A stretch of 64,000 bases of DNA from contig JARKPC010000241.1 of the NCBI GenBank assembly GCA_029975435.1, forward strand, positions 1 through 64,000. The letters are read 5' to 3'. Both the position numbers and the translations under genes were made by a program. The notes beneath the pieces are model-generated. The model was given only the letters and a program-made list of their open reading frames with translations, did no database searches and was not told the DNA's origin. Below, in pieces: positions 49,904 through 54,249 of the stretch (positions within the stretch are counted from its first letter, which is position 1; every line of letters begins with the position of its first letter). This stretch comes from Propionivibrio sp. Its GTDB lineage: Bacteria > Pseudomonadota > Gammaproteobacteria > Burkholderiales > Rhodocyclaceae.

Positions 49904-50659
49904 ATGGAAGAAACGTATCGCGAAATAGCCGCAAGGCTGCGTGAAGCACGCCGGATCCTCTTCATCACCGGGGCCGGGATATCGGCCGATTCCGGGTTGC
50001 CGACCTATCGCGGAGTGGGCGGGTTGTACAACGATGAAGCTACGGAAGACGGCCTGTCCATCGAGGATGCGCTATCCGGCGAGTGCATGTCGATCCGCCC
50101 GGAAATTACCTGGAAATATCTGGCGCAGGTCGAGCGCAATTGCCACGGCGTTCAGCCAAATGCCGCGCATTTGGCGATTGCCGGGCTGGAACGGCAATGC
50201 GAGGTGGTTGTTCTCACGCAGAATATCGACGGCCTGCATATCAAGGCCGGCAGTTCAAACGTGATCGAGATCCACGGCACACTGGAAGCGCGCTATTGCG
50301 CACACTGCGGAACGCCGGCCGACGCTCGCGACGACCGAGTTCCGCCACGGTGCAAACAATGCGGCGAAATCGTGCGTCCGCGCGTCGTGCTGTTCGGCGA
50401 GATGCTCCCGGAAACGGCCCTCAACCGGCTTTACGACGAACTCGCACGCGGTTTCGACATGGTGTTCGTCATCGGCACGACCGCCGTTTTTCCCTATATT
50501 GCCGAGCCGGTACTGCGTGCGGCTCGTGCAGGCGTCCCGACGGTCGAGATCAACCCGGCGCGGACGCGCCTGAGCGATCTGGTGCGGTACTACATCCCGG
50601 AGCGGGTGGCGGTGGCCTTGCCGGAGTTGAGCCGGCTCACGCTGCCCGGCGATCGGTAG
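49904..50659 (+). CDS. SIR2 family NAD-dependent protein deacylase (CobB-like)
   Basis: GAGISADSGLPTYRG, LTQNIDGLH, EIHGTLEARYCAHCG, CKQCG. Confidence 0.92.
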   Translation: MEETYREIAARLREARRILFITGAGISADSGLPTYRGVGGLYNDEATEDGLSIEDALSGECMSIRPEITWKYLAQVERNCHGVQPNAAHLAIAGLERQCEVVVLTQNIDGLHIKAGSSNVIEIHGTLEARYCAHCGTPADARDDRVPPRCKQCGEIVRPRVVLFGEMLPETALNRLYDELARGFDMVFVIGTTAVFPYIAEPVLRAARAGVPTVEINPARTRLSDLVRYYIPERVAVALPELSRLTLPGDR

Positions 50660-50825
50660 CACCGAGGCGCCGGTATCCCATGGCGGCCATCAGTCTTTCG
50701 AATTGAGCCAGCGAGGCGTCGGAGACCTCTTGGGTGTGCCGTGAGAACCAGCTGCGGCCTTGTTGGCTGACACCCGACGGAGTCATGGTGATTACAGTCT
50801 TGGCGTATTCGTTTGCCTGGGTCAT
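50637..50825 (-). CDS. Small protein, paralogue A of a tandem pair
   Basis: 62 aa MTQANEYAKTVITMTPSGVSQQGRSWFSRHTQEVSDASLAQFERLMAAMGYRRLGATDRRAA; RBS TTTGGAG. Confidence 0.65.
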   Translation of the reverse strand: MTQANEYAKTVITMTPSGVSQQGRSWFSRHTQEVSDASLAQFERLMAAMGYRRLGATDRRAA

Positions 50826-50892
50826 GGCGTGTTCTCCAAATTCAGCCAGAAGCACAAATACGGACGATAGACAGGCGCTCTGGTCTTGTACA

Positions 50893-50920
50893 TACGGGTG
50901 TGCGCCTACGGGTATACGCC
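50893..50920. repeat. Tandem 14-bp direct repeat upstream of paralogue A
   Basis: TACGGGTGTGCGCC / TACGGGTATACGCC. Confidence 0.8.
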
Positions 50921-50956
50921 TATGTCCGTACGCTTCCGGCTGGCCTTGAACGGAAA

Positions 50957-51169
50957 TCATCCACCGCGTGCGGTGACCGTTGCTCCGGAGGTGGCTTGAG
51001 TGACCGGCTCGAGTGGCCGATATCCCATGAAAGCCATCAGTTGCTCGAACTCGGCGAGCGAGGCGTCGGAGACGTTCTGGGGATGCCGCGCGAACCAGCT
51101 GCTTGGCTGGTTGGTGTCCGATGGGGTTGTGTCAGTTGCAGTTTCGCCGCTTCCGTTTGTCTGAATCAT
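50957..51169 (-). CDS. Small protein, paralogue B of a tandem pair
   Basis: 70 aa MIQTNGSGETATDTTPSDTNQPSSWFARHPQNVSDASLAEFEQLMAFMGYRPLEPVTQ...; RBS TTTGGAGGA. Confidence 0.65.
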   Translation of the reverse strand: MIQTNGSGETATDTTPSDTNQPSSWFARHPQNVSDASLAEFEQLMAFMGYRPLEPVTQATSGATVTARGG

Positions 51170-51328
51170 GGTCTGTCCTCCAAACTTGGTCAGAGACACG
51201 AAAATACGAGAATGCAAAAGGAATAATGGCATCGGGTTAGAGCAATGTATACCCGTACTTTCCGCCGAATCTTGCGGAGAATACCTGAGTGGATTGTGCT
51301 GTTTCGACGCAGCTTGGCCGGGATGTCC

Positions 51329-52873
51329 TCAGCCTTTCAAGCCCAGTCGGCGCGACAGCTTGTGCAGGTTGCTGGCGTCGATGCCGAGCACGCGTGCGGC
51401 GCCGGCCCAATTGCCGTCACACCTTGCAAGCGCCTGCCTGACGAGCTGGCGCTGGTAGGCTTCGAGTGCGGTCTTTAGCGATACGTTCACGGCTCCCGGC
51501 TGCTCGCCGGATGGCGCTGCGATCTCCGGAGATGACGGCTCTATCAGCGGCACGTCGAGGTCCAGCAGTTCCGGTTCCAGGGTAACGATGTCGGTACGTA
51601 CGGCGCCGCGGCTGATGGCGCGCAAGGCGGCGCGGCTGATGACGTGTTCGAGTTCACGGACATTCCCCGGCCAATGGTAGGCGCACAGGGCGGTTTCGGC
51701 CTGCGGCGACAGGCGCAGGCCGCGCAGGCCGAGGCGGGTGCGGTTGAGTTCGAGGAAGCTGCCGGCCAGAAGCAGCACATCGTTGCCGCGATCGCGCAGC
51801 GGGGGTATCTGCACGGGGTAGACCGAAAGCCGATGATAGAGATCGGCCCGGAAATGCCCTTCGCGCACACGTTCCGGCAGTTGTCGGTTGGTGGCGGCAA
51901 CGATCCTGACGTCGACCGTGTGCGGCTGGTCGGCGCCCAGACGCTGAATCTCGCCGTTCTGCAAAGTGCGCAACAGCTTGGCCTGGACGGCGAGCGGCAG
52001 TTCGCCGACTTCGTCGAGGAACAGCGTACCGCCTTCGGCGGCCTCGATGCGACCGGAGCGCTCGCCGTGCGCGCCCGAAAAAGCCCCCTTGACGTGCCCG
52101 AACAGTTCGCTTTCGGCCAGCGATTCGGGCAGGGCGGCGCAATTGACCTGCACCAGCGGCCCGTCGGCGCGACGCGATGCGCGGTGCAGATGGCGGGCAA
52201 ACAGTTCCTTCCCGACTCCCGTCTCACCCAGCAGCAACACGGGCAGTTCGGAATCGGCCACGACATCGAGTTCGTTCAGCAATTCCAGCAACTGCGGGCT
52301 TTGTCCGATGATCTCCGCGTCACCCGGTTGACCGGTGAGCGAGGAAGGCGTTTCCTGATCGAGCCGCCCTGCGCGCAGACGGCGGTTTTCCTCTTCGATT
52401 CGGGTCATCCGCACGGCGGTTTCGACCATCAACGCCAGGCGCGCCAGGTCGTGGTGCGCGGATTGGCCGAAAACGTCGCCGCTGAGCGCGTCGAGCGTGA
52501 GTGCCCCCCAGCTCTTTCCATCCTGGTTCAGGCGGATGCCCATGCAATCATGCACCGGCAAGGGTTCGCCCAAATGGTGGTCGAGCAAACCGTCGTAAGG
52601 GTCGGGCAGCGAACTGCCCGGCGGAAAGTGTACCGGCGCGCGGCTGGCCAGGATGGCTGACAGGCGCGGGTGTTGCGCGATGACAAAACGGCGCCCGAGC
52701 GTTTCCTGGGCCAGCCCGTCGACGGCCAGAGGACGCAGGCTGTCGCCCTCGAGTTTCAGCAAGCCGACCGCTCCGCAGCCGAAATGTGCGCGAATGGCAT
52801 TCACCAGGCGCTGGAGGCGAACGGTGTGCGGCAATTCAGTGGCCAGGTCGGCCAACAGCAGTGATGTGATCAT
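51329..52873 (-). CDS. norR: Nitric oxide-responsive sigma54-dependent regulator NorR
   Basis: N-terminal GAF, GETGVGKELFARHLHRAS, ELFGHVKGAFSGA (GAFTGA-like), C-terminal Fis HTH. Confidence 0.93.
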   Translation of the reverse strand: MITSLLLADLATELPHTVRLQRLVNAIRAHFGCGAVGLLKLEGDSLRPLAVDGLAQETLGRRFVIAQHPRLSAILASRAPVHFPPGSSLPDPYDGLLDHHLGEPLPVHDCMGIRLNQDGKSWGALTLDALSGDVFGQSAHHDLARLALMVETAVRMTRIEEENRRLRAGRLDQETPSSLTGQPGDAEIIGQSPQLLELLNELDVVADSELPVLLLGETGVGKELFARHLHRASRRADGPLVQVNCAALPESLAESELFGHVKGAFSGAHGERSGRIEAAEGGTLFLDEVGELPLAVQAKLLRTLQNGEIQRLGADQPHTVDVRIVAATNRQLPERVREGHFRADLYHRLSVYPVQIPPLRDRGNDVLLLAGSFLELNRTRLGLRGLRLSPQAETALCAYHWPGNVRELEHVISRAALRAISRGAVRTDIVTLEPELLDLDVPLIEPSSPEIAAPSGEQPGAVNVSLKTALEAYQRQLVRQALARCDGNWAGAARVLGIDASNLHKLSRRLGLKG

Positions 52874-52931
52874 GGTAAGAAATACCATTAAAAGGTCAAA
52901 AATACCGCTAAATAATACGGTAAAAAAAACC
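52874..52931 (+). promoter_or_regulatory. Three NorR enhancer boxes (GGT-N7-ACC)
   Basis: GGTAAGAAATACC (52874-52886), GGTCAAAAATACC (52894-52906), GGTAAAAAAAACC (52919-52931). Confidence 0.88.
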
Positions 52932-52971
52932 GTATTGCAAAGTTTGTTCTATAAATCAGTTTATTAGCTGA

Positions 52972-52987
52972 TGGCACGCGGTTTGCA
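52972..52987 (+). promoter_or_regulatory. sigma54 (-24/-12) promoter of ytfE
   Basis: TGGCAC-N5-TTGCA, 41 bp upstream of ytfE ATG. Confidence 0.9.
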
Positions 52988-53027
52988 TTAGTACGGATGT
53001 CACTGACTCAACCAAAGGATTTCCACC

Positions 53028-53693
53028 ATGAGCCTGCTAGAACAACCGATCGGGCAACTTGCCTGCGCATTGCCGGGCGCCACCCGGATATTCCATCAGC
53101 ACAAACTCGACTTCTGCTGCGGCGGCCACAAGAGTCTGCGCGAAGCGGCCGAGAAGCGCGGGGTGAATCCGGAAGCGCTTTTGTCCGAACTGGAAACCCT
53201 ACAGAACGTCGATCCACGCAACCGTGATTGGCGCTCGGCGTCTTCCGGCGAGCTGATCGAACATATCCTGCAGCGTTATCATGAGCGGCACCGTGAGGAT
53301 CTGCCCGAACTGATCCGCCTGGCACGCCGCGTAGAACAGGTGCACGGCGAACGCGCGGATTGCCCGGCCGGGCTGGCGGACCATCTCGAAGCAATGTTCC
53401 ACGAACTGCTCAGTCACATGATGAAGGAGGAGCAGGTGCTGTTTCCGATGCTGCTCGCGGCGAATGACGGAGAGGCGCGGTCGCCCATTTCGTTGATGCG
53501 TTTTGAACATGACCAGCACGGTGAAGCGTTGGCACGGCTGGAAGCGCTGACCGACGACATCCATGCACCCGTGGATGCCTGCAACACGTGGAATGCCCTG
53601 TACGCCGGCCTTGCCAGGCTGCGCGAAGACTTGATGCAGCACATTCACCTGGAGAACAACGTGCTTTTTCTTAACGCGGAACGGACCATTTGA
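53028..53693 (+). CDS. ytfE: Iron-sulfur cluster repair di-iron protein (RIC/YtfE/ScdA; NorA-like)
   Basis: N-terminal DUF542 motif (FHQHKLDFCCGGHKSLREAAEKRG), hemerythrin-like C-terminal domain. Confidence 0.93.
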   Translation: MSLLEQPIGQLACALPGATRIFHQHKLDFCCGGHKSLREAAEKRGVNPEALLSELETLQNVDPRNRDWRSASSGELIEHILQRYHERHREDLPELIRLARRVEQVHGERADCPAGLADHLEAMFHELLSHMMKEEQVLFPMLLAANDGEARSPISLMRFEHDQHGEALARLEALTDDIHAPVDACNTWNALYAGLARLREDLMQHIHLENNVLFLNAERTI

Positions 53694-53712
53694 GCCATAC
53701 TGGACCATATCC

Positions 53713-54249
53713 ATGACCGATTCCCTTCTGCCACACGCGCCCGCGCTCGACGAACCGCTTGAAATGCTTGAAGCGTGCCATGAGCGAATCGAAGCGCAAT
53801 TAAAGACGCTGGAACGCTTGGCAGCGTACCTCCCGGACCATGGCGCGGACGAGCAGTCCCGCCAGGCGGCTAGGGCGATCCTTCGCTATTTCGAGATGGC
53901 GGGACCGAACCATCATGAGGACGAAGAACAGAACCTCTTCCCCATGCTTGTCAGCAGGGCCGGGACTGAAGACCGGGCGGCAGTGGATGCTCTGGTCAGC
54001 AACCTGCTGGCCGACCACGTAAAGATGGCGTCCGCCGTCGGGGCCATGCGCGAGCAGCTGATTCCGATTGCCGATGGAACCGCCGCGATGCTGGATCCGG
54101 CATCGGTGTGCCTGATGACAACCGTGTACCGGCGGCACATTGAAAAGGAGAATCGGGAACTCCTTTCGTTGTCACGAAAGCTGCTGACGTCGCAGGATGT
54201 TGAAGACTTGAGTCGTGCCATGACCGCGCGCCGGAGTCGAAAGGACTGA
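53713..54249 (+). CDS. Hemerythrin domain-containing protein
   Basis: 178 aa; EACHERIEAQLKTLERL..., NHHEDEEQNLFPML, HIEKENRELL. Confidence 0.9.
   Translation: MTDSLLPHAPALDEPLEMLEACHERIEAQLKTLERLAAYLPDHGADEQSRQAARAILRYFEMAGPNHHEDEEQNLFPMLVSRAGTEDRAAVDALVSNLLADHVKMASAVGAMREQLIPIADGTAAMLDPASVCLMTTVYRRHIEKENRELLSLSRKLLTSQDVEDLSRAMTARRSRKD

Follow-up and report, generated by a model that had tools for sequence, protein, structure and literature searches.

The window examined here, a stretch of 64,000 nucleotides from contig JARKPC010000241.1 of Propionivibrio sp., contains two small minus-strand genes (A and B), and the promoter of A is common with the chemotaxis genes of the genus. Judged from this promoter, co-regulation of A with the chemotaxis genes is very probable. 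The best explanation as a whole is that A and B belong to one small-protein family, that A is part of a chemotaxis regulon, and that these proteins may dock on CheY, a reading to which we give a probability of roughly 0.3. What can be read from the sequence by itself is a coding family, a conserved core and a promoter architecture common with chemotaxis genes. The promoter of A is the new finding; it was missed in the preliminary description of the locus, as was the relation of A and B to a larger group of small proteins (the DRR/ERR family, see below).

Annotation often overlooks small proteins, and only a minority have been linked to a pathway. For this family without a description, the chemotaxis-type promoter supplies both a pathway and, in CheY docking, a molecular idea that can be tested. 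The promoter further hints at a chemotaxis regulon that appears to do without FlhDC in Accumulibacter-like bacteria, which are important in wastewater phosphorus removal.

Genes A and B and their relatives in the genus

The features of the two genes and of the DNA upstream of them are as follows.

50957–51169, minus strand: gene A, 70-aa small protein (ORF with TTTGGAG RBS; relatives, purifying selection)
51178–51184, minus strand: RBS of A, TTTGGAG, ahead of the ATG
51017–51073, minus strand: helix core of A, VSDASLAEFEQLMAFMGYR; the family members in the genus conserve it, and a helix is predicted at residues 35–47
51223–51231, minus strand: extended −10 of A, TGCCATTAT; its distance from TACGG, 26 nt, is that of the chemotaxis promoters
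51248–51286, minus strand: palindromic regulatory element of A, with right arm GCGGAAAGTACGGGTATA at 51248–51265 and a degenerate left arm
50637–50825, minus strand: gene B, 62-aa paralogue of A (ORF with RBS; E = 3e-13 to A; no changes in 186 bases in G018)
50834–50840, minus strand: RBS of B, TTTGGAG, ahead of the ATG
50670–50726, minus strand: helix core of B, VSDASLAQFERLMAAMGYR, aligned with A and the relatives
50886–50905, minus strand: upstream of B, what may be a decayed copy of the element, GCGCACACCCGTATGTACAA, by sequence inspection only

Two minus-strand ORFs of 62 and 70 aa with a shared core, each preceded by TTTGGAG, had been reported earlier and are present as described. Their paralogy was borne out by a search of the whole genome, in which A and B showed 51% identity (E = 3e-13) and were the only two copies detected at this level. 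The build proposed for them, a variable N-terminus with a conserved core (WFARHPQNVSDASLAEFEQLMAFMGYRPL in A vs. WFSRHTQEVSDASLAQFERLMAAMGYRRL in B), was likewise confirmed. The likeness of A and B goes beyond chance: the pair was found again in Candidatus Accumulibacter sp. UBA704 (G018), a member of the same genus, at 99% and 100% amino acid identity, and dN/dS is low. An alternative upstream ATG of A at 51232 would give a protein of 91 aa; this start is unsupported by an RBS or by the start sites of relatives. At its 3' end, B runs 23 bp into the convergent sirtuin gene.

The family had been called unannotated, and rightly so: no Pfam or NCBIfam model matched A or B even at E ≤ 10, and the family as a whole had no relevant match in Pfam, NCBIfam or PHROGs. 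A PDB sequence search with the family gave nothing meaningful, a plasmid search contained no family members, and a scan of genome contigs using A alone found nothing. In the searches for relatives, a weak match was counted only when its ORF had the full core, and was otherwise put down to chance. One distant relative (ISDASRCEFEHLMTSMGFR) is present in G024 in a different context. A profile search of the genus added 61-aa relatives in G010, G002, G003 and G006, which have the form MARKRMSDRR..GPPSGCAERR..DRRKTEVSEATYEEFEMLMTALGFR. The small gene is found in only 7 of the 29 genomes of the genus (the pair in two, distant relatives in five).

The promoter of A and the chemotaxis genes of the genus

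The half-site GCGGAAANTACGGRT is located ∼80–105 bp ahead of the start codon of A and of each of the genus's five distant relatives, despite their differing neighbours. In A and four of the five relatives, it is followed after exactly 26 nt by an extended −10 (TGnnAnnnT); in the fifth, the G024 gene, the spacing is off by about one. A follows the order of half-site, 26 nt and TGnnAnnnT to the letter. The same 26 nt from TACGG to TGnnAnnnT are also fixed in PAS-chemoreceptor, Hpt and HD promoters; L147, L148, and L153 are examples of the Hpt, cheY, chemoreceptor and HD gene promoters of the genus that carry the element.

A search of the 29 genomes by pattern only (GCGGAAANTACGGRTRYA, at most one mismatch) gave 24 matches vs. 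4 for the reversed control. Matches away from the small genes were mostly upstream of chemotaxis genes; a few were inside genes and look like chance. In eight genomes the element precedes an Hpt gene heading a response-regulator/CheD operon, and it is also found before two chemoreceptor genes and one HD-domain gene (Pfam confirmed examples, with Hpt, Response_reg, CheD, MCPsignal, and HD). A looser scan of selected loci detected it before cheY too, with the Hpt operon and cheY of the window's own genome included. At the chemotaxis genes the element usually takes the form of a palindrome, CCGTAnTTnCCGCA-N7-GCGnnAAnTACGGATGCA. Compared with the 39-bp palindrome consensus, A has six mismatches, mostly in the left arm, which is degenerate (AGGTATTCTCCGCA; consensus left arm CCGTAnTTnCCGCA at 7 nt). 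Most small-gene relatives have no clear left arm. Upstream of B the pattern searches did not detect the element, and only a degenerate copy was seen by eye.

A would be transcribed with the chemotaxis genes from a promoter that is probably activator-dependent, with a palindrome upstream and an extended −10. This common promoter very probably places A in the chemotaxis regulon and not in the neighbouring nitric-oxide response set. FlhDC was considered as the regulator of the element and judged unlikely, because FlhC was found in just 1 of the 29 genomes of the genus and is missing from the other 28, the window's own genome (G000, 82% complete) among them. A palindrome on contig C136 of G002 was considered as the relic of a lost small gene; this was dropped, since an HD-type gene lies on the opposite strand and the palindrome makes more sense as its promoter. 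Within the literature collection searched, nothing relevant was found on the DNA element, on RR-motif small proteins or on Accumulibacter chemotaxis.

The genus is equipped for flagella, with FliM in 27 and CheZ in 27 of the 29 genomes. FliM was also found in all 15 tested genomes holding wider-family members or near-members. This co-occurrence says little, since 84% of family genomes have CheZ anyway.

The core helix and the CheY-binding peptides of CheZ and FliM

AlphaFold2 predicted one fairly confident helix in A (residues 35–47), with the remainder mostly unstructured; the mean pLDDT of this model, which drew on only five sequences, was 58, and the helix alone is usable. A and B are members of a family of 60–70 aa proteins, hitherto without description, in which the N-terminus varies and a single short amphipathic helix, [VI]S[DE]A[ST]xxEFExLMxx[LM]G[FY]R, is conserved. 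Docking on CheY was proposed from the likeness of the core to the CheZ and FliM peptides, from a permutation test, and from the common face of CheY that CheZ and FliM bind in similar modes (PMC3774744).

The C-terminal CheY-binding peptide of CheZ (SQQQVDDLLDSLGF in this genus; ASQDQVDDLLDSLGF in E. coli, residues 200–214, PDB 1KMI chain Z) and the family core have the spacing h-[DE]-x-L-[LM]-x-x-[LM]-G-[FY] in common. Up to 7 of 14 residues are identical, as in the G010 relative compared with the CheZ tail of its own genome (SRGQFETLMSSLGF vs. SQQQVDDLLDSLGF). The motif ends the protein in CheZ, whereas in the A/B family it is followed by an Arg and a tail. The four-helix phosphatase domain of CheZ is absent from the A/B family, and the Pfam model of the CheZ domain (PF04344) did not match A, B or their relatives at E ≤ 10. 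The N-terminal CheY-binding tip of FliM reads SQDEVDALL in the FliM of the genus vs. SLAEFEQLM in A; the A/B family is without the FliM domain and carries the motif internally.

When a profile of the CheZ tail was run against 7689 ORFs, the G010 relative was the top non-CheZ match at 18.4 bits, and an unrelated protein reached 17.1 bits. A and B scored 5.3 and 8.9 bits, respectively, with many unrelated ORFs above both. Of 20,000 permutations in which the hydrophobic pattern was retained, four reached the family mean, which becomes roughly p = 0.01 after allowing for ∼50 possible offsets, for an idea formed after seeing the data. The likeness of the core to CheZ and FliM is partly due to generic helix capping and amphipathicity, and the LGF end is missing in most members of the wider family.

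In the proposed mechanism, A/B-type proteins would bind CheY-type receivers via the core. We put forward CheY binding by the family, and an effect of that binding, as a tentative proposal to which the statistics lend modest support. It is doubtful, though conceivable, that these are free-standing small CheY-docking proteins which are co-made with the chemotaxis genes and compete for, or sink, phosphorylated CheY. If so, they would be peptide regulators of the flagellar switch within a palindrome-driven regulon.

CheY docking is the single most specific mechanism; taken as a class, other partners in the chemotaxis network are somewhat more probable. A would then still belong to the chemotaxis regulon, and its helix would bind a chemoreceptor, CheA, CheW, an Hpt/response-regulator pair, or an HD-domain or c-di-GMP protein, or would act on another motility-linked target. 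This comes close to an even chance: the promoter evidence does not rest on the CheY likeness, and the targets of the element include chemoreceptor, Hpt, CheD and HD-domain genes, but the sequence shows no sign of any other partner.

The wider DRR/ERR family of Betaproteobacteria

When a profile made from the G010, G002, G003 and G006 sequences alone was run on the window genome, it detected both B (E = 1.1e-6) and A (E = 6.8e-4). The same four-sequence DRR-type profile brought in a wider betaproteobacterial family, with matches at E ≤ 0.001 in 14 of 399 genomes of the order and the pattern DRR-x6-GPPxGWxERRxxxERRxPEVxExSxxEFExLM. We define this previously unnamed group here as the DRR/ERR small-protein family of Betaproteobacteria. 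Its members are similar in size to A and B and have the C-terminal segment PEVxExSxxEFExLM in common with them; A and B agree with the conserved part xVxExSxxEFExLM. Most members are without the LGFR end, whereas A, B and the G024 protein are without the DRR/ERR segments (no DRR..GPPxGxxERR..DRR was found in these three). L077 (ERRRQPDRRLPELTDASFEQFELELAALGK) is an example of an intermediate that joins the A/B-type and DRR-type sets. The most plausible reading is that A, B and the G024 protein form a subgroup which lost the DRR segments, and A and B are at most a derived subgroup within the DRR/ERR family.

Several other forms of the module were observed. A further DRR/ERR small protein, of 80 aa, is encoded in the window's own genome (contig C11, 12007–12114, L099). 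A 125-aa protein in G265 (L102, 1276–1653) has two tandem DRR/ERR modules, and an ankyrin-repeat protein in G178 (L091, 1393–1947) carries the module on its C-terminal side, so that it also exists as a fusion. In another genus, DRR-type small genes (L097, L098, and L100) are preceded by a conserved CRP/FNR-like palindrome, GTGAGTTATTTCAC; L077 and L078 have GTGACATTACGCAC.

Wherever members of the wider family were checked, their neighbours and upstream motifs differed from those of A. One could suppose that the family has a general function, e.g., nucleic-acid or membrane-surface binding via the DRR/ERR segments, and that the chemotaxis link is a regulatory accident of the genus. The varied neighbours, the other upstream motifs (CRP/FNR-like palindromes included) and the fusion to ankyrin repeats agree with such a function. 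We regard it as improbable, since A and B are without the DRR/ERR segments and their helix core is nevertheless under purifying selection.

Gene neighbourhood in the window

The pair had been placed between the sirtuins and norR. This is correct in the window, where A and B are flanked by a Sir2-family gene and a NorR-like regulator, but the location is not kept in other genomes and carries little functional information. Positions 51329–54249 of the window hold a probable nitric-oxide response cluster: the NorR-like regulator (GAF, sigma-54 activator, Fis HTH) and, divergent from it, a ScdA_N/hemerythrin (RIC-like) gene and another hemerythrin gene. A viral scan with the NorR-like protein returned sigma-54-type regulators only and nothing on A or B.

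A and B lie directly downstream of this GAF/sigma-54-activator/Fis-type regulator and near the ScdA_N-hemerythrin genes, which would suit a role in the nitric-oxide response set (NorR-like regulator, RIC and hemerythrin genes). Such a role is quite unlikely: A has its own chemotaxis-type promoter, and the relatives in G024, G010, G002, G003 and G006 sit elsewhere, without nitric-oxide response neighbours.

Coding status and age of the duplication

The cores of A and B differ with pS 0.52 and pN 0.14 (dN/dS ∼0.18). Among the relatives, dN/dS was 0.06 for L048 vs. L049 and 0.20–0.24 for L047 vs. L048 and L049. The range of 0.06–0.24 covers the estimable pairs only; for pairs with L050, saturation of the synonymous sites left no ratio to report. 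We concluded from this range that A and B are coding. B has no changes in 186 bases between the window genome and G018, and the adjoining intergenic DNA does vary. Homologues with a conserved protein sequence are thus present, and dN/dS indicates purifying selection on them. That the two ORFs are untranslated, being spurious or antisense to the sirtuin gene, would fit the lack of an annotation-library match, but is extremely improbable in view of dN/dS values of 0.06 (L048/L049) and ∼0.2 (L047 pairs, A/B core) and of the conserved RBS and length.

The duplication had been thought recent, which did not hold. Both copies are already present in the second genome, the dS of the core is ∼0.9, and the element upstream of B is at best a decayed copy of that of A. 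With both copies in place before the window genome and G018 diverged, and with a core dS this high, the duplication is old.
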